This document shows positions 23,515-32,575 of a stretch of DNA of 64,000 nucleotides, piece by piece. The stretch's first letter is position 1; every line of letters starts with the position of its first letter. The DNA is from Halopseudomonas oceani (GTDB lineage: Bacteria; Pseudomonadota; Gammaproteobacteria; Pseudomonadales; Pseudomonadaceae). The DNA lies in contig NZ_PPSK01000019.1 of assembly GCF_002903165.1 (NCBI RefSeq), positions 1 to 64,000 of the forward strand, written 5' to 3'. The notes below the pieces were generated by a model that made no database searches, was not told the origin of the DNA, and saw only the letters and a list, made by a program, of their open reading frames with translations. The position numbers were made by a program, and so were the translations under genes.

Positions 23515-23569
23515 GTTGCTGGTCTGAACGGGTGCGGCAGGCTGACGCAGCATTGCATAGTCGTCATGG

Positions 23570-23598
23570 TTGCTCGCGGACGGCGCAGCAAAGACAAT
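23570..23598 (+). promoter_or_regulatory. Possible sigma-70 promoter of the TonB2-type operon
   Basis: TTGCTC (23570-23575) and GACAAT (23593-23598) are 17 bases apart and would start transcription about 44 bases before the DUF3450 gene. No Fur box is apparent in the interval, which is unusual if the operon serves iron uptake. Confidence 0.4.
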
Positions 23599-23648
23599 GT
23601 CGCTCCTATGTCTGGCTGGCGCTGCCAGCGCGTGTTGAGGGGAGAGGG

Positions 23649-24410
23649 ATGAAATCAGTATGGCTGACGGTACTGTTGCTGCTGCCATTGAGTCTGCAGG
23701 CCGAGCAATTGCTGGAGCAGGCGCAGCAACAGAGCGAGGCGCTGACCAGCGAAGCGGTGGCAGCACAGCAGCGCATTGACCTGCTCGACGATGCCACCCG
23801 CGCGGCGCTCACCGAATACCGGCAGGCCAGCACGCAGGCAGAGGCGCTGACCGAATACAGCGAGCGGATGCAGCAGTTGGTCCAGACCCAGGCGGCCGAG
23901 ATCGCCAGTCTGCAACAACAGATTGACAGCGTTGCCGACACCCAGCGCGAGATGGTGCCGCTGATTCGGCGCATGATCGAGTCGTTGGATGCCTTTGTTG
24001 CACTGGATCTGCCTTTCCTGCTGGAAGAGCGCGAGGAGCGGATCGCCCGTTTGCAAGCGTTGCTGGTTGAGCCGGAGGTCAGCGTTGCCGAGTTGTATCG
24101 CCGGGTCCTGGAGGCCTACCAGATCGAGAGTGATTACGGCCGCACGCTGGAGGCCTGGCGCGGCCCGTTGGGCGAAGGCGAGCAACAACGGGTCGTCGAG
24201 TTCCTGCGTGTTGGTAGGCTGATGCTGTTCTACCAAAGCCTGGACGGGCAGCAGCAGGGTTATTGGGACACCGCCCAGGGGCAGTGGCAGGCGCTGCCCT
24301 CCAGCTACCGGCGGGCGCTGGATCAGGGCATGGCGATTGCCCGCAATGAGCAGACGCCGCAGTTGTTGCGCTTGCCGATGCCCGTGGTCAGTGCGGAGGT
24401 GACGCCATGA
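23649..24410 (+). CDS. DUF3450 periplasmic coiled-coil protein of the TonB2-type operon
   Basis: 253 residues: a signal peptide (MKSVWLTVLLLLPLSLQA), then a long Gln/Glu/Ala-rich coiled coil (about 20-110) and an alpha-helical C-terminal half. This is the DUF3450 family, found at the head of TonB2/TtpC operons in Vibrio and related marine bacteria. GGGGAGAGGG just before the ATG is a strong ribosome-binding site. The stop overlaps the next start (ATGA), so the proteins are probably made in fixed ratio. Its exact role is unknown; a periplasmic partner of the TtpC extension is a reasonable inference. Confidence 0.88.
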   Translation: MKSVWLTVLLLLPLSLQAEQLLEQAQQQSEALTSEAVAAQQRIDLLDDATRAALTEYRQASTQAEALTEYSERMQQLVQTQAAEIASLQQQIDSVADTQREMVPLIRRMIESLDAFVALDLPFLLEEREERIARLQALLVEPEVSVAELYRRVLEAYQIESDYGRTLEAWRGPLGEGEQQRVVEFLRVGRLMLFYQSLDGQQQGYWDTAQGQWQALPSSYRRALDQGMAIARNEQTPQLLRLPMPVVSAEVTP

Positions 24411-25747
24411 AGTGGATTATTCCACTGCTGATCTGTGCGATCGCGCCGCTGGCACAGGCACAGACGCTGAACAAGGAAGCGCTGCTGCAGAGCATTCGTG
24501 ATACCCGCAATGCCGAGCAGGCGGCGATGCAGGCGCGTGAGCAACAATTCCTGCGCGAGCGTGATCAGCAACAACAGCGGCTGGCGCAGGCCCGTACACG
24601 ACTGGCACGGGCGCAGGCCAGAGCAGACCAGCTGGACGCGCAGTTCAAGGCTCAGGGTGACCAGTTGGCCGCATTGAGAGAAGAGCTGACGCAGCGCAGC
24701 GGCAATCTTGGGGAGCTGTTTGGGGTCGTCCGTCAGGGAGCTGGTGATACCCTCGGGCAGTGGCAGGACTCGCAGCTTAACCGTCGTTATCCCGAGCGGC
24801 GCGACGAACTGGAAGCGCTGGCGCAAAGCAGCAGAATTCCCAGCGTCGAGACGCTGGAGCAGTTCTGGTATCGGTTGCAGCAGGACATAACCGCCAGTGG
24901 CGAGGTGGCGCAGATCAGTGCGCCTGTGGTTGATCGCCAGGGCCTCAGCACCGCGATGCCGGTGGTGCTGGTCGGCCCCTTCGTTGCCCTTGCCGAGCCG
25001 GGGTATCTGCTTTATCAGCCTGACAGCAACAGCCTGGAGTTGGCCGCTCGCCAGCCGGGCAGTAGCGGGCTGGTCGGCGACTTTCTCGCGCCGCGTGAGG
25101 CACCTGCCGATCTTTTGGTCGACCCCGCTGGTGGACAGGTCATCGCGCAACTGCAGCGCACGCCGGATCTGCTGACCCGGCTGTCTCAGGGCGGCATCGT
25201 TGGCTATGTGATTGTCGCGCTGGGTGTGTTGGGTGTACTGCTGGCGCTGGCACGACTGGTTTGGCTGCAGCGGGTGCAGCGCGGTGTGGATCGTCAGATC
25301 GACGACCTCAACGCGCTGCGCAGCGACAACCCGCTGGGGCGGGTGCTGAGCGTGATCGGCAGCAAGCCGCGGCTGGAGGAACTGGACACCCTCGAACTCA
25401 AGCTGGATGAGGCCATTCTGCGCGAAACGCCGGCGCTGGAGCGCTGGCAGGGACTGGTCAAACTGCTCGCCGCAGTTGCGCCGCTGCTCGGGCTGTTAGG
25501 TACCGTGACCGGTATGATTGCGACCTTTCAGGCGATTACCCAGTACGGCAGTGGCGACCCGAAGCTGATGGCAGACGGTATTTCGCAGGCGCTGGTAACC
25601 ACCGTTCTGGGGCTGCTGGCGGCGATTCCGCTGCTGTTTCTGCACAGCCTGGTCGCGGCGCGCAGTAAGGCGCTGATTCAGTTGCTGGAGCAGCAGAGTG
25701 CAGGGTTGATCGCGCTGCATCTGGGTGGCGGAGAGTCGCGTGACTGA
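24407..25747 (+). CDS. ttpC: TtpC-like MotA/TolQ/ExbB proton channel protein with periplasmic extension
   Basis: 446 residues. A signal peptide (MKWIIPLLICAIAPLAQA) is followed by a coiled coil (about 25-110), a periplasmic domain, a transmembrane segment near 265-288 (GGIVGYVIVALGVLGVLLALARLVWL) and the C-terminal ExbB/TolQ channel region with two further segments (LLAAVAPLLGLLGTVTGMIATF and VTTVLGLLAAIPLLF). It is thus an ExbB with a large N-terminal extension, as in TtpC of the Vibrio TonB2 system, where it is needed beside ExbB2-ExbD2-TonB2. The gene symbol is given by analogy. Confidence 0.85.
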   Translation: MKWIIPLLICAIAPLAQAQTLNKEALLQSIRDTRNAEQAAMQAREQQFLRERDQQQQRLAQARTRLARAQARADQLDAQFKAQGDQLAALREELTQRSGNLGELFGVVRQGAGDTLGQWQDSQLNRRYPERRDELEALAQSSRIPSVETLEQFWYRLQQDITASGEVAQISAPVVDRQGLSTAMPVVLVGPFVALAEPGYLLYQPDSNSLELAARQPGSSGLVGDFLAPREAPADLLVDPAGGQVIAQLQRTPDLLTRLSQGGIVGYVIVALGVLGVLLALARLVWLQRVQRGVDRQIDDLNALRSDNPLGRVLSVIGSKPRLEELDTLELKLDEAILRETPALERWQGLVKLLAAVAPLLGLLGTVTGMIATFQAITQYGSGDPKLMADGISQALVTTVLGLLAAIPLLFLHSLVAARSKALIQLLEQQSAGLIALHLGGGESRD

Positions 25748-26255
25748 TCTGCTTTGGCGCCTGCTGGCGTTTCTCGACAGCGGCGGCTGGGTGCTGTGGA
25801 CCATTCTGGGGGCCACTGTACTGCTGTGGACGTTGATGCTGGAGCGACTGTGGTATCTCGCGCTGGTGTTCCCGCAGCAGGCGCAGGCGTTGCAGCAGCG
25901 TTGGCTGGCGCGCGGTGAACGCCGCAGCAGTGCTGCACGCCATATTCGTACTGCCTGGCTGGCACAGGCGCAGGCGCAGCTGGCGCGTTTCATGCCGCTG
26001 GTACGGGTGCTGATTGCGCTGTGTCCACTGCTCGGGTTGCTGGGCACGGTCAGCGGCATGATTCAGGTGTTTGATGTGATGTCGATCAGCGGGAATGGCA
26101 ACCCGCGGGCGATGGCCGCCGGCGTGTCGCGCGCGACAGTCCCGACCATGGCCGGTATGGTGATCGCGATCAGCGGTCTGTTTTGTCTGGCGCGGCTGGA
26201 TCAGCAGGCGCGAAGGGCGCTGCAGCGCCTGTCCGATCGTCTGCAGCAGGATTAG
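25740..26255 (+). CDS. exbB: ExbB-type proton channel subunit (GTG start)
   Basis: 171 residues from GTG 25740, which overlaps the ttpC end by 8 bases and has GGAGAG just upstream; GTG 25725 is an alternative adding five residues. Three transmembrane segments are seen: WVLWTILGATVLLWTLMLERLWYL, VLIALCPLLGLLGTVSGMIQVF and VPTMAGMVIAISGLFCLARL. The short form matches ExbB2. It forms the proton channel with ExbD that energises TonB. Confidence 0.9.
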   Translation: MTDLLWRLLAFLDSGGWVLWTILGATVLLWTLMLERLWYLALVFPQQAQALQQRWLARGERRSSAARHIRTAWLAQAQAQLARFMPLVRVLIALCPLLGLLGTVSGMIQVFDVMSISGNGNPRAMAAGVSRATVPTMAGMVIAISGLFCLARLDQQARRALQRLSDRLQQD

Positions 26256-26265
26256 GAGAGCACCG

Positions 26266-26676
26266 ATGCGCATGCGCAGACATCACGCTGGTAGCGACGA
26301 GGAAGCGGGTATCGACCTGACGCCGATGCTCGACATCGTTTTTATCATGCTTATCTTCTTTATTGTGACCAGTTCCTTTGTGCGCGAAGCCGGTATCGAC
26401 GTGTTGCGCCCGAGTGCTGACAGCGCGGTGAGCAAGCCGCGAGCGAGCATTCTTATTGCTGTCAGCGCGGATGGTGAGATCTGGATGGATGGTAAGGCTA
26501 TTGATATCCGTGCTGTACGTGCAGCCGTCGAGCGTATGCGTGTCGATCAGCCGGACAGTACCGTTGTAGTGCAGGCCGACCGTGATGCGCGCACCGGATT
26601 GGTGGTGCGCGTGATGGATCAGGCCAAGCTGGCTGGCATCGAGGATGTGGCGCTGGCGGCGACGGCGGGGCCGTGA
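26266..26676 (+). CDS. exbD: ExbD-type biopolymer transport protein
   Basis: 136 residues with a short basic cytoplasmic start, a single transmembrane helix (IDLTPMLDIVFIMLIFFIVTSSF) and a periplasmic domain. Asp23 in LTPMLD corresponds to the proton-carrying Asp25 of E. coli ExbD. TAGGAG precedes the ATG, and the TGA overlaps the tonB ATG. Confidence 0.95.
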   Translation: MRMRRHHAGSDEEAGIDLTPMLDIVFIMLIFFIVTSSFVREAGIDVLRPSADSAVSKPRASILIAVSADGEIWMDGKAIDIRAVRAAVERMRVDQPDSTVVVQADRDARTGLVVRVMDQAKLAGIEDVALAATAGP

Positions 26677-27368
26677 TGCGGCTGCTGGGCAGTTTTTTTC
26701 TGGCCCTGCTGGTGGCGTTGGCGCTGTTCGGTCTGATGCTGGCGCTGGTGATGCCGCCAGAGCGGGTCGAGCAGCCCGAGCGCGAGGTGCTGCGTATCGG
26801 GGTTACCCGTAGCGTGGCCGACACCCCCAGCGAGCGTAACCAGCCACAGCAGGCGCCGGAGCGTCCGACTCCGCCACAACGGCCGCGAGTGCAGCCACCG
26901 ACGCCTGTTGCCCCGCCATTGCCAACGCCGACGTTGAAGATTGAAGTCCCGCAACTGCAAAGCGATCTCACGACCAGTGCCGCCCCAGCGCAACCGGTGC
27001 TGGAACCCGCTGCGGTGGCCGCCGCGCCGAGTGAAGCGAGCAGCAATTCGGCGCATCAGGCTGCAGCGCACGGTGCCCCCGAGAGTGATGCACAAGAGCT
27101 GGTAGCGCTGAATCTGGTCGAGCCGGAGTACCCGGAGCGGGCGCAAAGGGCAGGTATCGAGGGAGCGGTTACTCTGCAGTTTGTGGTGAACGCCGAGGGG
27201 CGTGTCGAGAATATCAGAGTGCTGAGTTCCGAGCCGCCCGGTGTGTTTGACCGCGCTGCCCGCAGAGCGGTCAGCCGCAGCCGATTTGTGCCTCGGCAGG
27301 AAAACGGTATCGCGGTCGCGCGGGAGGCAACCAAGGAGTTCCAATTCGTTCTTCCGGGGCGGCACTGA
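26676..27368 (+). CDS. tonB: TonB energy transducer
   Basis: 230 residues from ATG 26676, which shares a base with the exbD stop. An N-terminal transmembrane anchor (LLGSFFLALLVALALFGLMLALVM), a Pro-rich periplasmic spacer (about 50-95, with PTPPQRPRVQPPTPVAPPLP) and a TonB C-terminal domain (EPEYPERAQRAGIEGAVTLQFVVNAEGRVENIRV) are clear. It transmits energy to TonB-dependent receptors such as the btuB product at 56448. The spacer is short, as in TonB2 proteins. Confidence 0.93.
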   Translation: MRLLGSFFLALLVALALFGLMLALVMPPERVEQPEREVLRIGVTRSVADTPSERNQPQQAPERPTPPQRPRVQPPTPVAPPLPTPTLKIEVPQLQSDLTTSAAPAQPVLEPAAVAAAPSEASSNSAHQAAAHGAPESDAQELVALNLVEPEYPERAQRAGIEGAVTLQFVVNAEGRVENIRVLSSEPPGVFDRAARRAVSRSRFVPRQENGIAVAREATKEFQFVLPGRH

Positions 27369-28435
27369 TGCGCGCCTGGATTTTCAGCTGTTTGCTGCTG
27401 GCGGCGCCGGTGTTGGCCGAGCAGATCGACCCGAGGGTCTACAGGGCGCTGGATGATGTACGGGCGGCCGAGCAGGGTGGTGATCAGGCTGCCGCTCGCC
27501 TGCAGCTACAGGCGGCATTGCCGGCGAGCGCCGAGGGTAGTCTGGAGCGTGCGCTGTTACAGCAGCGATTGGCCTACATGGCGATTGATGCCGGTGATGC
27601 CGAACATGCGATTCACTGGTTGCGCGAGTCGCTCAATCAGCACGCGCTGGGCGCTGAGGTTGAAGCGCAGGATCGGGCCAACCTGGCCCGTTTACTGATG
27701 CAACAGCAGCGTTACCGGCAGGCCGTCATGGAGCTGGAGCAACTGCCGACAAGCGATGCCAGCCGCGAGTTGCTGGTCCAGGCCTACCGCGAGCTGGGTG
27801 AGTTCAGCAAGGCCCTGCCGCTGGCCGAACAGGTGGTGCGCCGGCGCCCGGAGGCCGGGGATATCTGGTATCAGTTGCTGGTCGGCATGAACTACGAAAT
27901 CAAGCGCTACTCTGAGGCCGCGCGCTGGCAGCAGGTATTGCTGACCCGCGCGCCGGACAATCGGGCCAATTGGCGTCAACTGGCCAGTCTGCAGAGCTTG
28001 GCCGGTCAGCAGGCCAAGGCGGCGGCGACCATGCGGCTGGCACAGCTGGCGGGTGTCGGGCTGACGCCCGGCGATATGGAAACACTGGTCGCGCTGCATA
28101 CCCGTGCGGGCGCACCCTGGCAAGCAGCCCGCCTGCTTGAGCAGTTGTTGAGTGATCGCCTGCTGGACAGCACGCTCGAGCGTCAACGTCAGTTGGCCCA
28201 GTTGTGGCAAGCGGCGCGGGATTATCCGCAGGCCCTGCAGCTTTGGCTGCGGGTGGCGGCGGCTTCAGGGCAATCGGCGGACCGCCTGCAGGTGGCCTGG
28301 TTGCAGTATCAGCAAGAGCAGTGGCAGGCGTTGCAGGCTACCTTGCGAGGGTTCCAGCCATCCGGAACGGTACAGCGCAATCAGGTCAACCTGCTTCGCA
28401 CGCTGGCGGAGCAGGCGCTGGAAGTTGCTCAGTAG
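27368..28435 (+). CDS. TPR-repeat periplasmic protein ending the TonB2-type operon
   Basis: 355 residues: a signal peptide (MRAWIFSCLLLAAPVLA), then helix-pair repeats throughout, rich in Ala, Leu, Gln and Arg, of the tetratricopeptide type (for example AEHAIHWLRESLNQHALGAEVEAQDRANLARLL). A TPR protein closes the TonB2 operon in Vibrio too. It probably acts as a periplasmic scaffold; the partner is not known. One-base overlap with tonB (TGATG). It converges on the DUF3299 gene with a 7-base overlap of the 3' ends. Confidence 0.85.
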   Translation: MRAWIFSCLLLAAPVLAEQIDPRVYRALDDVRAAEQGGDQAAARLQLQAALPASAEGSLERALLQQRLAYMAIDAGDAEHAIHWLRESLNQHALGAEVEAQDRANLARLLMQQQRYRQAVMELEQLPTSDASRELLVQAYRELGEFSKALPLAEQVVRRRPEAGDIWYQLLVGMNYEIKRYSEAARWQQVLLTRAPDNRANWRQLASLQSLAGQQAKAAATMRLAQLAGVGLTPGDMETLVALHTRAGAPWQAARLLEQLLSDRLLDSTLERQRQLAQLWQAARDYPQALQLWLRVAAASGQSADRLQVAWLQYQQEQWQALQATLRGFQPSGTVQRNQVNLLRTLAEQALEVAQ

Positions 28436-28935
28436 GCAAACTCCTCAATCCCGCTGGCGTCCAGGCGATAACCCGCGTTTGCCAGCTCGCTTTCACTCTG
28501 CTCGACCCGCAAGGTGCCGGTGATCCAGTACGGCACCCAGGTTGCGTCCAGAGCGATGCCGATTTCACTGTGAACCAGCACGATCTGGTTCGAGGGGGGC
28601 GGTGGTACGTGGATGCAGGCACCGAAGTAGGGTACCAGCAGAAACTCGGTGACGCGCTGGTTTGGGTCGACATTGAGCGGAACCACATAGCCCGGCAATT
28701 TAACCTCCTGGCCGTCCAGTTCTGCGACTGTGGGCGCGTTGGTCATGCTTTGGGTTAGCGGATCGGCAGGGGGCTGATCTTCCGACTGGAGGCCGTCATG
28801 GCGTGCCGGCGGCATCCCGTACAGGTAGCCGGTACCGGCGGGCACCAGTTCCTCCCAGCTAAGCTCGCGGGCGGCTTCAGCTGGCAGGGCAAGCAGACCC
28901 AGGGTCAGAGCAAGCAGGCGGGTGAGGCGGGTCAT
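28429..28935 (-). CDS. DUF3299 family periplasmic protein of the zinc-type operon
   Basis: 168 residues with a signal peptide (MTRLTRLLALTLGLLALPAEA). The family core LDGQEVKLPGYVVPLNVDPNQRVTEFLLVPYFGACIHVPPPPSNQIVLV is seen at about 72-120; it includes Cys and His residues (CIHVPPPPSNQ) that could bind metal. DUF3299 proteins often travel with MacB/FtsX-type ABC transporters, as here. Last gene of the operon starting at 31581. Function not established. Confidence 0.85.
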   Translation of the reverse strand: MTRLTRLLALTLGLLALPAEAARELSWEELVPAGTGYLYGMPPARHDGLQSEDQPPADPLTQSMTNAPTVAELDGQEVKLPGYVVPLNVDPNQRVTEFLLVPYFGACIHVPPPPSNQIVLVHSEIGIALDATWVPYWITGTLRVEQSESELANAGYRLDASGIEEFAY

Positions 28936-28950
28936 GGTATGTGCAGATTC

Positions 28951-30213
28951 CTAAAGTCGAATGGATAAGCCGTCGAGCAACGCCTGTCGATAGGCACGCC
29001 AGGCTGGAATGCATCCCATCAGCACGCTGGCGCCGACGATGCCGGCAAGCAGCGCCAACTCGTTGCCGGTTGGCCAGCCGAGCGGCAGGAACAGACCGTA
29101 TTGCTGTTCCAGCCAGGGCCGGGCCACAGCAATGCCGGCGTACAGCAGGCCCAGGCCGAGCGCGATACCGGCGATGGTCAGGCTGACAGCCTCCAGCAAC
29201 AGCAAGCCGAAGATATGCAGCGGCCGCGCACCGACCGAGCGCAGTACGGCCATTTCCCGGCGTCGCTCGTTCAGGCCACTGAGAATCGCGGTCAGCATGC
29301 CTACCAGTCCGGTCAGTACGACAAATACGGACACCAGCAGCAATGCTTTTTCCGCCACGCTAAGCAGCCCCCAGAGTTCCTGCAGGGCAACGCCGGGCAG
29401 GATGGCCAGCAGCGGCTCACCCGTGAACTCGTTGATCTGACGCTGCAAGGCAAAGGTATCGATGCGGCGATTGAGGCCAAGCATAAACGCGGTAATGGCG
29501 TGCGGCGTCAGGTCCAGCTCACGCGCCTGCTCGGCGCTAATCCTGCCGGCGCCGCGCGCGGGCATGCCCTGCTGCCAGTCCACGTGCAGGGCTTCGATGC
29601 CTTGCAGACTAACATGGATAGTGCGATCAACCGGGGTGCCGGTCTTGGCCAGGATGCCGACTACGTGGAAGGGTTTGTCCGCATGTTTGACGAAGCTGAC
29701 CGCGCCGGCGCCGTGGGCCAGCACCAGCTCGGTGCCGAGCTGATACCCGAGTTCCTGTGCGACGTCCGCGCCGAGCACCGCATCATAGAGATCGGAAAAC
29801 GGCTGGCCCTGGCTGAAGCTCAGGCTGCGATTGCGGCCAAAGTGGTAATGCTCGAAATAGGCCTGACTGGTGCCGAGTACGCGGAAGCCGCGGTGTGAGT
29901 CACCAAGCGACAACGGGATAGCCCATTTGACCTGCGGCTGACTGCTGATCTGCTGGAAGCTGTCCCAGCGAATATTGTTAGTGGCGTTGCCGATACGAAA
30001 AACGGAATACAGCAGCAACTGAACCGAGCCGGAACGGGCTCCGACGATCAGGTCAGTGCCGCTGACGGTGCTGGCAAAGCTGCTGCGAGCCTCGGTGCGA
30101 ACCCGCTCAACGGCGAGCAGCAGGGTGACGCTCAGGGCAATTGCAAGCACGGTAAGCAGGGCAGAAAAACGGCGGTTGGCCAGACTCTGGATAGCAAGGC
30201 GCAGCAGATACAT
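28951..30213 (-). CDS. ABC transporter permease, FtsX/MacB type
   Basis: 420 residues. One N-terminal transmembrane helix (about 12-33), a large periplasmic domain (about 35-275) and three C-terminal helices (LLVSVFVVLTGLVGMLTAILSGL, LLLEAVSLTIAGIALGLGLLYAGIAV, ELALLAGIVGASVLMGCIPAW) give the FtsX/MacB fold. Such permeases usually do not import solutes but move or release envelope substrates by mechanical transmission. The stop-start overlap with the ATPase gene (one base at 30213) supports a single transporter. Confidence 0.87.
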   Translation of the reverse strand: MYLLRLAIQSLANRRFSALLTVLAIALSVTLLLAVERVRTEARSSFASTVSGTDLIVGARSGSVQLLLYSVFRIGNATNNIRWDSFQQISSQPQVKWAIPLSLGDSHRGFRVLGTSQAYFEHYHFGRNRSLSFSQGQPFSDLYDAVLGADVAQELGYQLGTELVLAHGAGAVSFVKHADKPFHVVGILAKTGTPVDRTIHVSLQGIEALHVDWQQGMPARGAGRISAEQARELDLTPHAITAFMLGLNRRIDTFALQRQINEFTGEPLLAILPGVALQELWGLLSVAEKALLLVSVFVVLTGLVGMLTAILSGLNERRREMAVLRSVGARPLHIFGLLLLEAVSLTIAGIALGLGLLYAGIAVARPWLEQQYGLFLPLGWPTGNELALLAGIVGASVLMGCIPAWRAYRQALLDGLSIRL

Positions 30214-30923
30214 CAGAATGTCTCCGGCTGACTGGCGCGGTTCAACTCGGCCAGCGACAGGGCGCGATCAAAGCGCGTGGCGAGGCTGGTGTCGTGGCTG
30301 ACAAACAGCAGGCTGCTGCCCATCTGTGCGCACTCGTCGAACAGCAGCTTGAGAAAGGCGTCGCGGCTGTCGGCATCCAGTGCCGAGGTTGGCTCGTCCG
30401 CGATGACCAGTTCAGGGCTGCCGATCAGTGCGCGGGCGGCGGCCACGCGCTGTTGCTGGCCGATCGACAGGGCGCTGGCGCTGCGTTGTTGCAGGGTAGT
30501 ATCGCTTAGCCCGAGTTCTCGCAGCAGATGTTCGGCGGCGGCGTTCAGGCTGGGATGTTGACGCAGTGCACGTTCGCGGCGCAGGGCTGAAAAGCGGCAG
30601 GGCAGGGTAACGTTGTCGAGTACCGACAGGTACGGCAGCAGGTTGAACTGCTGAAACAGGTAACCGGTGTGGTCAGCGCGAAAGCGGTCTCTGCGCAGGG
30701 CGGAGAGTTGACCCAGTGACTGGCCCAGCAGGTTGATCTCGCCCCTCTGCGGCTGGTGCACTCCGCCGAGCAGCCCGAGCAGCGTGGTCTTGCCGCTGCC
30801 GGACGGGCCCTTGAGAAACAGCCGCTCTCCCGGCTGAAGGGTGAAGGCCGGAATGTCCAGCAAGGTCGGCTGGCCCGGCCAGGCGAACTGCAGGTCAGTG
30901 ACCTGCAGCAGAGGTGTGGTCAT
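30213..30923 (-). CDS. ABC transporter ATP-binding protein
   Basis: 236 residues with Walker A GPSGSGKTT (39-47), Q-loop FQQFNLLPYLSV, signature LSIGQQQRV and Walker B LVIADEPTSALD. It belongs to the MacB/LolD-like class that pairs with FtsX-type permeases. It begins 7 bases after the ZrgA-like gene and overlaps the permease gene by one base. Confidence 0.93.
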   Translation of the reverse strand: MTTPLLQVTDLQFAWPGQPTLLDIPAFTLQPGERLFLKGPSGSGKTTLLGLLGGVHQPQRGEINLLGQSLGQLSALRRDRFRADHTGYLFQQFNLLPYLSVLDNVTLPCRFSALRRERALRQHPSLNAAAEHLLRELGLSDTTLQQRSASALSIGQQQRVAAARALIGSPELVIADEPTSALDADSRDAFLKLLFDECAQMGSSLLFVSHDTSLATRFDRALSLAELNRASQPETF

Positions 30924-30930
30924 GTTGGCT

Positions 30931-31581
30931 TTAGTCCAATGACAGCGTGGGTTGGTCGGCGGTCAGCACGGCGCCATGCTGGCCGCTGGTGGTGATGGCC
31001 TGCACCTGAATGCGCTGCATCGCCGGAAAGCTATTGAACAACGGCAGGGTCAGCGCTTCAAGTCGCTCGGGAGTCGAGCAGTTGAAGTCAAAGCGGCCCT
31101 CGATATCGGCGTGTTCACCGTGTTCATGGTCGTGATGATCGTCGTGGTCATCATGCTGTTCATGTTCGCCCGATGCGTGATCGTCATGATGCTCATGCTC
31201 ATGCTCATGCTCATGCTCATGCTCATGCTCATCCGAGTCTTCGTCCTCGTGTGCGGCAAACAGAGGGCTCTCCAGCTCGACTTGCTGCAGTGTGCAGCCG
31301 GCTGCCGGGGTGAAACTGAACAGTGTGTCAGCCTGTTCGAGTGCCGCTTTGACGCGGGCGACGGTAGCGCGATCCTCGTCATTGCTTGGCAGGTGCTCGA
31401 AGCCAACCAGATTGGCTGCGGGGCTGTCGAGCTCAAGGCTCACGAGGCTGCCATCCACCACCAGGTTGAGGCTTGCAACGCCGTGCTCATGGGCGCCGAG
31501 GCTGGCGTGCTGGTGTTCTTCGGCAAGGACGGACTGGCTGACGGACAGGGCGACGCTCAGGGCAAGCAGGGTACGGCGCAT
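30931..31581 (-). CDS. zrgA: ZrgA-like (DUF2796) histidine-rich periplasmic zinc protein
   Basis: 216 residues: a signal peptide (MRRTLLALSVALSVSQSVLA), an N-terminal domain beginning EEHQHASLGAHEHGVASLNLVVDG, a long His/Asp/Glu stretch (about 113-157) and a C-terminal domain. This is the DUF2796/ZrgA family, which in Vibrio cholerae takes part in zinc acquisition with neighbouring ABC genes. The His-rich stretch is an obvious metal-binding region and is encoded by a perfect hexanucleotide repeat. A Zur-like operator sits directly upstream. The symbol is by family resemblance. Confidence 0.87.
   Translation of the reverse strand: MRRTLLALSVALSVSQSVLAEEHQHASLGAHEHGVASLNLVVDGSLVSLELDSPAANLVGFEHLPSNDEDRATVARVKAALEQADTLFSFTPAAGCTLQQVELESPLFAAHEDEDSDEHEHEHEHEHEHEHHDDHASGEHEQHDDHDDHHDHEHGEHADIEGRFDFNCSTPERLEALTLPLFNSFPAMQRIQVQAITTSGQHGAVLTADQPTLSLD
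31191..31232. repeat. Perfect hexanucleotide tandem repeat (seven copies)
   Basis: GCTCAT is repeated seven times without error inside the ZrgA-like gene; on the coding strand it gives alternating His-Glu. Because the unit is six bases, slippage would change the number of His-Glu pairs without shifting the frame. Confidence 0.95.
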
Positions 31582-31597
31582 GGGTAAGCTCCTGGTT

Positions 31598-31638
31598 GAA
31601 ATAAAATGTTATCTTATTTCATTTTTGCGATAAGGCAA
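31598..31638 (-). promoter_or_regulatory. Zur-like operator over the promoter of the zrgA operon
   Basis: The segment 31603-31625 follows the zinc-uptake-regulator pattern GAAATGTTATA-N-TATAACATTTC at most positions (best part AAATGTTAT...CATTT). A second, perfect dyad GAAATAA-N9-TTATTTC covers 31598-31620. On the - strand TTGCCT (31638-31633) and TAAGAT (31616-31611) form a promoter with a 16-base spacer, so a bound repressor would cover the -10 region, 22-44 bases before the ATG. Consensus is quoted from memory. Confidence 0.6.
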
Positions 31639-31651
31639 CCCCGCATTTATC

Positions 31652-31685
31652 GCTCCCGGTCATGCACTGTCGCCGACGCGGGAGC
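31652..31685. other. Inverted repeat after the cnoX-like gene
   Basis: GCTCCCG (31652-31658) and CGGGAGC (31679-31685) can pair around a 20-base loop in the gap between cnoX and the zrgA operon. No T-run follows on the - strand, so it is only a weak terminator candidate. Confidence 0.3.
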
Positions 31686-31696
31686 AATTGATTGAA

Positions 31697-32575
31697 TCAG
31701 TAGAGGGCCTGGTACAGCTTGCGGCGGTACTGCACCGTGAGTGGGTGATCGCCCCCCAGCAGATCAAAGACCTGCAGCAGGGTCTTCTGCGCTGCTCCGT
31801 CATTCCAGCTGCGGTCGCGCTGCAGCAGGTCAAGCAGCGATGCCAGGGCGCTGTCGCCATGGCCATCAGTGAGGTCGTGCAGGGCCAGCTGGTAGCGTGC
31901 CTCGCTGTCACCTGCGTCGGCGTTCAGGCGTGCTTGCAGTTGCTCGCGGGAGGGGATGCCGCTGGTCTGGCGGGCGAAATTCAGTTGCGCCTTGAGTGCG
32001 CTCAAAGTTTGTTTGTGGCTGTCTTGCTGTTGGACGGCGCTGATGACTTGCTCGGCGTCGTCCAGTTGGTTGTCGGCCAGCAGTGCGCGAGCCAATACCA
32101 ACAGCAACGCATCATCCGGCTCCGCCTGCAGGGCCGATTGCAACAGGGTGATCGCCTGCTGCGGCTGGCCAGCATCGATCAGCGCCTGTGCCTGGCTGGC
32201 CAGATCTTCTCCGGGCTGCTCGGCAACGGGTGCGGGCTCGTTGACGTGCGGCGTCAGCAGTTCACGAATGGCACTCTCGGTTTGTACGCCGGCGAAGCCC
32301 TCGACCGGCTGGCCGTCCTTGAATAGTACGACGGTCGGCAGACTGCGGATGCCGAAGCGCTCGGTCAGGCCTGGCTCTGCGTCGCAGTTGACCTTGGCCA
32401 GCAGCAGTTCGCCTTCGTAGCTGTCGACAATTTTCTCCAGTACTGGAAACAGCGCTTTGCAGGGCGCGCACCAGTCGGCCCAGAAGTCCACCAACACGGG
32501 TTTGTGGAAGGAGTTTTCGAGCACGTAGCGATCGAAGGTATCGGTGGTGGCGTCGAACAGATAGGGCGATGACAT
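31697..32575 (-). CDS. cnoX: CnoX/YbbN-type thioredoxin with TPR domain
   Basis: 292 residues. A thioredoxin fold (about 1-110) carries the redox-active motif WCAPCK (Cys36, Cys39) and the cis-Pro SLPTVVLF, followed by a TPR-rich helical region (about 125-290). This is the CnoX family, chaperones that protect proteins from oxidative aggregation and hand them to GroEL or DnaK. E. coli CnoX has lost the catalytic Cys pair; this one keeps it and so can probably also reduce disulfides. Follows the methyltransferase and LysR genes on the same strand. Confidence 0.9.
   Translation of the reverse strand: MSSPYLFDATTDTFDRYVLENSFHKPVLVDFWADWCAPCKALFPVLEKIVDSYEGELLLAKVNCDAEPGLTERFGIRSLPTVVLFKDGQPVEGFAGVQTESAIRELLTPHVNEPAPVAEQPGEDLASQAQALIDAGQPQQAITLLQSALQAEPDDALLLVLARALLADNQLDDAEQVISAVQQQDSHKQTLSALKAQLNFARQTSGIPSREQLQARLNADAGDSEARYQLALHDLTDGHGDSALASLLDLLQRDRSWNDGAAQKTLLQVFDLLGGDHPLTVQYRRKLYQALY

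Follow-up and report, generated by a model that had tools for sequence, protein, structure and literature searches.

A zrg operon behind a Zur box in Halopseudomonas oceani, and the exclusion between zrgA and a histidine-rich loop in the MacB-like permease of related operons

How can a MacB-like exporter fold serve a cell that is starved of zinc? The question is raised by the zrg operon of Halopseudomonas oceani, which lies on a stretch of 64,000 nucleotides (positions 1 to 64,000 of contig NZ_PPSK01000019.1, assembly GCF_002903165.1), hereafter called the window. Behind a predicted Zur box, the operon encodes a histidine-rich periplasmic protein (ZrgA), the ATPase (ZrgC) and permease (ZrgB) of an ATP-binding cassette (ABC) transporter, and a DUF3299 protein (ZrgE). 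The field is unsettled: work on Vibrio sees a zinc importer that ZrgA serves as binding protein, while work on Pseudomonas sees pyochelin-cobalt export (here and below, papers are cited from excerpts). The operon family is already known, and Zur control of the Pseudomonas aeruginosa copy has been published. What we add is a changed operator half-site in eight relatives, a distribution argument against pyochelin as the general substrate, and an exclusion between zrgA and a histidine-rich loop of the permease, which points to one segment of ZrgB as the place of zinc handling.

On balance, we think it probable that this is a Zur-repressed zinc-starvation operon in which ZrgA hands zinc to a split MacB-like transporter, ZrgC-ZrgB. 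With zinc plentiful, Zur would occupy the promoter box; as zinc falls, zrgA-zrgC-zrgB-zrgE would be transcribed. Exported ZrgA would then collect Zn2+ by its folded site and its histidine-rich tract and pass it to the periplasmic domain of ZrgC-ZrgB, a transporter of the type VII group, and ATP-driven movement of this ZrgB domain would carry the zinc onwards. The probable place of handover is the ZrgB segment around residues 207-245, since a histidine-rich loop occupies it in most relatives that lack zrgA. We infer both the direct ZrgA-ZrgB handover and its site; from there the zinc may go to the cytoplasm or to another carrier. The evidence gathered here is gene content, a conserved Zur box, conserved zinc ligands and the ZrgA/loop exclusion in the loci examined; orthologues contribute Zur binding, induction by zinc starvation, zinc binding by ZrgA and the need for it in low-zinc growth of Vibrio cholerae.

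ZrgA and the histidine-rich loop of the permease

The permease of the window (28951..30213, - strand; 420 amino acids (aa), zrgB / PA4065 type) matches MacB_PCD with 48.5 bits (cut-off 27) and FtsX with 66.6 bits (cut-off 25.5) in Pfam, and its closest named relatives, in Halopseudomonas pachastrellae and Pseudomonas abyssi, are 90% identical (the host's own record was possibly omitted). The loop site corresponds to residues about 207-245, between conserved EAIH and ITA-like motifs, where the window protein has GMPARGAGRISAEQARELDLTP.

For a class draw, the permease profile was run on 369 gammaproteobacterial genomes, of which 38, the host included, have the permease, and all listed matches outside the host genome were taken (38 loci, 37 genomes). 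For an order draw, 394 genomes from the order of one zrgA-less genome yielded 140 with the permease, and 80 loci were taken, 20 of them chosen for a split match or long frame and 60 (59 genomes) hand-picked from the 140. Among the genomes listed in the order draw, 20 have a permease match that breaks off at residues 211-233; 18 of these have open frames of 452-666 aa, and two have shorter ones.

None of 161 loci with zrgA has a histidine-rich loop, the segment holding one to three histidines, whereas 27 of 33 loci without detected zrgA have one, with 6-78 histidines (up to 78 in 278 residues). Among the 161, zrgA lies nearby in 156 and elsewhere in the genome in five; the window and named Pseudomonadaceae loci closely related to it make up 80 of them. 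A loop was called histidine-rich at 6 or more histidines, a cut chosen after the loops had been seen; rows on cut contigs or on a short contig of a metagenome-assembled genome (MAG) (L201, L222, L311, L087; we number loci L and genomes G), without anchors (L217, L264) or with a broken frame (L218) were left out. Fisher's exact test gives p = 1.4e-27 for the exclusion, a value that overstates the case because the rows are related and the order set is enriched. In the unenriched class set of 38 loci, 33 combine zrgA with a histidine-poor loop; G384, on a contig that begins within the permease gene, has the loop and no zrgA; G644, also without zrgA, has a permease frame that breaks inside the histidine tract; and three could not be assessed. 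The genus, another unenriched set, has the permease in 34 of 37 genomes, and ZrgA is over cut-off in 32 of these 34. The genus members G007 and G021 lack ZrgA genome-wide, and both have a histidine-rich permease loop.

Absence of zrgA was checked genome-wide in 13 genomes, being confirmed in G007, G021, G644, G384, G314 and G473 (the last three with the permease at the edge of a contig), with ZrgA present in the other seven, and wider flanking stretches were examined for 40 loci. For the order-level loop loci, absence means within about 9 kb on either side in 22 of 24, less at contig ends, and within about 3.5-4.5 kb in L262 and L274.

In a tree of 129 permeases computed with the loop removed, the loop label needs nine changes, of which starred branches force at least five, and seven are needed for the zrgA label; gain is not separable from loss in this tree, and the program flags long branches that meet (L202 with L215, L260 with L284). 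Three cases are telling. The Halopseudomonas pair G007/G021 stands beside the zrgA-bearing L124 within the Pseudomonadaceae, and L296, with the loop and no zrgA nearby, stands beside L302 of the same genus, with zrgA and no histidine-rich loop. The third is genome G934, which has two ZrgBC systems (L279/L350 and L280/L339), one with zrgA nearby and a histidine-poor permease, the other with a histidine-loop permease and neither zrgA nor zrgE nearby. Of the 26 histidine-loop operons in the tree, 15, including those of G007 and G021, have a Zur-type box directly before the ATPase gene, with a score of at least 16.8, which no more than 1 of 200 shuffles attained; none was found within the stretch scanned in the other 11.

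Because operons without zrgA mostly carry the loop at this segment, the exclusion suggests that ZrgA works there. On the simplest account, ZrgA and the loop would share one task at one site, keeping zinc beside the periplasmic domain of ZrgB. Such an exclusion speaks for a machine with zinc itself as its object, be it through import, hand-over or gating, without telling which. We give an even chance to the stronger proposal that ZrgA is a detachable zinc trap for one permease site, not indispensable; in several lineages the operon lacks zrgA and the periplasmic domain of the permease bears a histidine loop, in some of them still under a Zur box. If this is true, ZrgBC would be a zinc-handling machine that uses the fold of MacB and binds zinc at a defined site, and operons without zrgA would be self-contained, which would allow zinc import, gating and release to be told apart. 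No mention of a histidine loop in the permease was found in the excerpts of the papers on Vibrio ZrgA (PMC9820375, PMC9817125), and its novelty is provisional.

Several points weigh against ZrgA delivering zinc to ZrgC-ZrgB. Folds of the MacB type mostly belong to exporters or mechanotransmitters. Six loci without detected zrgA also lack the loop (2-4 histidines), none of them with a Zur box before the ATPase gene within the stretch scanned; these main counter-cases may be zrgA-free systems without any histidine tract, or users of a distant zrgA. For most histidine-loop genomes the absence of zrgA is established near the operon only. Independent pairs number only five, in which the loop goes opposite to zrgA in 3.2 on average and the same way in none (median p 0.25). 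Among published data, inductively coupled plasma mass spectrometry after loss of PA4065 in a znuA zrmB strain of P. aeruginosa found no relevant zinc difference and an accumulation of cobalt (PMC11481552). The zinc affinity of PA4063 is only micromolar, weak for a collector (PMC8561739). In V. cholerae the histidine-rich loop of ZrgA was dispensable in the growth assays used (PMC9820375); to equate the histidine tract with the function is therefore too simple, and the folded ZrgA site can be enough.

The zrgA-less permeases of G644 (L218/L359) and G768 (L264/L361) have a reading frame that is interrupted within the variable segment or close to it. The break of G644 lies inside the histidine-coding repeat, and for both genomes assembly error and slippage are indistinguishable. 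L087, a 5.1-kb Pseudomonas MAG contig, carries ATPase, permease and DUF3299 genes with neither zrgA nor a histidine-rich loop; a patatin-like gene stands in front of them.

Zinc delivery, sensing or export

In V. cholerae, ZrgA has been read as the protein that binds zinc for an importer, and a znuA-minus background requires zrgA (PMC9820375); in V. parahaemolyticus, ZrgA has a part in acquiring zinc (PMC9817125). For PA4063, a role as chaperone or sensor has been proposed, the latter from its micromolar affinity and exposed sites (PMC8561739). Applied to our operon, ZrgA or the histidine loop would be a zinc sensor that gates the machine, so that transport is shut off as periplasmic zinc rises. 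A loop within the permease would make a natural inhibitory switch, and the ZrgA/loop exclusion fits equally well. But V. cholerae ZrgA is needed for low-zinc growth and survival, not merely for shut-off (PMC9820375), and its tightest zinc site is below 1 nM. We regard a sensor as unlikely.

The original prediction had named metallophore export as one way in which zinc might be gained. ZrgB-ZrgC would then export pyochelin or pyochelin-cobalt and relieve zinc starvation indirectly, a proposal that is published for P. aeruginosa: PA4064/PA4065 were modelled as a MacB divided over two proteins, with pyochelin-cobalt as the proposed substrate of export, and mutation of PA4065 in a znuA zrmB background raised intracellular pyochelin and cobalt, the cobalt effect being lost without pyochelin synthesis (PMC11481552). 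The permease studied here likewise has a MacB-like periplasmic domain. As a general role, the distribution argues against it. ZrgA occurs in 289 of 298 Pseudomonadaceae genomes (287 over cut-off), in all 19 genera, whereas the thiazolinyl-imide reductase TIGR01761, a marker of pyochelin/yersiniabactin-type synthesis, is found in 13 of 298, apparently the same genomes, at E 0.001 and over cut-off in 10, with no match in the 37 genomes of this genus within the draw. Condensation domains of nonribosomal peptide synthetases occur in one of the 37 genus genomes, not the host, which in contrast to the PA4063-PA4066 system thus has neither a TIGR01761 nor a condensation-domain match. Nor was a MacA/HlyD protein present among eight proteins scanned in and beside the operon (the rest of the genome was not searched), and export would leave ZrgA and the histidine loops unexplained. 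The distribution has its caveats: makers of enantio-pyochelin may use a different reductase, so that TIGR01761 may miss them, and imported foreign metallophores are a possible substrate. Because the operon is kept nearly everywhere without that route of pyochelin synthesis, pyochelin export is unlikely as its general role, which does not contradict the P. aeruginosa data, and we hold metallophore export by the present operon to be quite improbable.

The permease does stand outside the classic class of metal importers, as had been claimed: in Pfam it is MacB_PCD/FtsX, and the operon has neither a cluster A-I binding protein nor a ZnuB-type permease. With ZnuABC it shares the nature of a Zur-controlled ABC system for zinc starvation, but ZrgA is, according to the excerpted papers, no cluster A-I binding protein. 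With MacAB-TolC it shares the two permease domains, but the ATPase is a separate protein and not fused to the permease, and the partner is a zinc-binding protein. Compared with the Protein Data Bank (PDB), the permease profile matches LolF (best), YtrF, MacB, LolE, LolC and YbbP, with weak scores and best stretches all in the C-terminal FtsX part. Because these matches spread over the group, the ATPase is separate and no MacA gene adjoins, "MacB" describes a likeness more than a membership, and the permease belongs to the wider type VII group. An AlphaFold model of the window permease (27 rows, 70-90% identical) reached a mean predicted local distance difference test score (pLDDT) of 55.3, too poor for a fold search.

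The Lol matches raise the possibility of a machine resembling LolCDE that would strip zinc from lipoproteins or envelope proteins, or shuttle it between periplasmic carriers, with no import of its own; release from envelope proteins was the other way of gaining zinc that the original prediction had named. Four-transmembrane folds of this class usually carry no small ions across the membrane, which speaks for it. In contrast to LolCDE, the operon has a single permease gene and no LolC/LolE pair, and it has a Zur box and a ZrgA partner; we hold this account to be quite improbable.

The Zur box at the zrgA promoter

The original prediction had placed a Zur-like operator on the -10 of the zrgA promoter. 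The operator is TGTTATCTTATTTCA on the + strand, 15 bp at 31607-31621, with three mismatches to a Zur consensus; on the coding strand (31607..31621, -) the box reads TGAAATAAGATAACA, with the right half intact and the left half GTTAT changed to GAAAT. The bare consensus match is weak, with 0.27 expected per window and at least one match in 25 of 100 shuffles, and genome-wide, at up to three mismatches, the Zur pattern gives 10 matches and a reversed control pattern 28. No second Zur-like site within three mismatches is present in the window.

At up to two mismatches, the host genome has five sites against one for the control pattern. The original prediction had suggested looking at other Zur targets, and better boxes indeed lie between a FUR-family gene and znuA and before folE2, cobW and two TonB-dependent receptor genes. 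The genome encodes two FUR-family proteins, and znuA (PF01297) is accompanied by an ABC ATPase gene across zur. A scoring matrix built from the five other boxes, that of the window excluded, finds its best match 33 to 106 nt before the zrgA start in 109 of 109 upstream regions, with scores of 10.7-25.3 (30 genus loci and 79 named loci, several genomes twice, from the 110 loci L020-L129, of which L087 has no zrgA). The window box scores 13.9, the five other boxes 23.8-25.3. In P. aeruginosa, complete Zur binding to the PA4063 promoter was seen in electrophoretic mobility shift assays only with zinc (PMC8531726), and PA4063, which has a Zur site and is induced by zinc limitation, was 45.1-fold up in a znuA deletion strain by RNA-seq (PMC4542158). 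Because of the five better boxes, the same promoter position in all 109 regions and the published data on orthologues, we identify the operator as a Zur box, though an imperfect one. Its placement on the -10 is plausible only, as a consensus scan for sigma-70-type promoters in 28300-31720 gave no site.

The left half-site GAAAT is found in eight genomes, that of the window and G001, G002, G008, G010, G011, G017 and G018, which within the genus rank highest by identity of the full-length permease (79-100%). It occurs in none of the further 23 loci examined from the genus, and GTAAT stands in four of these; G023, a ninth close relative with a partial genome, was left out of the comparison. A weaker operator that derepresses earlier would be the simplest reading of this half-site. 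It is very improbable that the dyad is no Zur site in this clade, control having been lost or passed to another regulator. In favour of such a loss, three mismatches are a level without genome excess over the control, the left half is GAAAT in eight related genomes, and according to a review the putida and syringae groups apparently lack Zur control of PA4063 (PMC10393844). Against it, all eight genomes retain the right half ATAAC, each keeps two to five other sites within two mismatches (one or two for the reversed control), including one that resembles the zur/znuA box of the host (gene context was checked in the host genome only), and one-sided boxes like that of the window are also found at zrgA in L090 and L120.

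An outer dyad, TGAAATAA..TTATTTCA, has its only zero-mismatch match in the genome at the window site. Its arms are spaced in G002 as in the window and stand 3 nt further apart in G008 and G011, whereas G001, G010, G017 and G018 lack the second arm. We dropped it as a separate element, as spacing and arms are unstable among close relatives; the conserved element is the Zur box. One of the two TonB-dependent receptors behind the better boxes of this genome (positions 1500-3015 of L012) has a histidine-rich loop and looks ZnuD-like.

The genes of the operon and their surroundings

All four proteins of the original prediction were recovered by Pfam at their claimed place and strand in the host genome (4.16 Mb, 64 contigs). 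They are ZrgA (30931..31581, -; PF10986 with 198.1 bits, cut-off 27.4), the ATPase of zrgC / PA4064 type (30213..30923, -; ABC_tran, 107.3 bits), the permease described above and the DUF3299 protein ZrgE (28429..28935, -; 152 bits), each above its cut-off. Gaps of 7 nt (zrgA-ATPase) and 15 nt (permease-DUF3299) and a 1-nt overlap (ATPase-permease) make 28429-31581 (-) a tight operon; the same-strand spacing supports the single transcript that had been claimed, which we infer from it.

We assign the system to the known family, as the Halopseudomonas counterpart of PA4063-PA4066 and the Vibrio zrg genes, because of sequence matches to the solved PA4063, V. cholerae ZrgA and PA4066 and conserved zinc-site residues. 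PA4063-PA4066 agrees with it in all four protein types and in having a promoter with a Zur box, and differs in that the operator half-site is degenerate here (the box of PA4063 itself was outside the comparison). By a review, homologues of PA4063-66 are widely kept in Pseudomonas (PMC10393844). In V. cholerae and V. parahaemolyticus, zrgABCDE comprises homologues of ZrgA, the ATPase, the permease and the DUF3299 protein under Zur, whereas no zrgD (DUF2607) is present among the operon genes here, a gene not searched for elsewhere; only about 115 nt separate zrgA from the next gene.

ZrgA matches 7ahw (PA4063) at E 4.5e-42 and 8ezw (V. cholerae ZrgA) at E 1.3e-17. Its residues H31, H33, E62 and H157, equivalents of the site-1/b ligands, and the disulfide pair C96/C168 are found in at least 97% of 110 ZrgA rows; from alignments and published text, the four ligands would correspond to H35, H37, E66 and H184 of V. 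cholerae ZrgA. Its His/Glu tract is encoded at 31189-31232 by a perfect 6-bp tandem repeat, ATGCTC, of 7.3 copies, and the length of the tract could therefore change by slippage, two residues per step. The DUF3299 protein matches 4hsp (PA4066) at E 1.9e-41 and has a strongly conserved GACIHVPPPPxNQ stretch. Within GACIHVPPPPSNQ, C107 and H109 occur in at least 97% of 81 rows, and also in distant homologues, and are candidates for a metal or thiol role.

On the opposite strand, ExbB-like, ExbD-like, TonB and TPR genes (23532-28435, +), a set of the TtpC/TonB type, converge on the zrg operon, the DUF3299 gene overlapping the end of the TPR gene by 7 nt. The five convergent genes compared (24407-28435) adjoin the zrg operon in 7 of 80 named loci (L050, L051, L052, L110, L114, L115 and L124).

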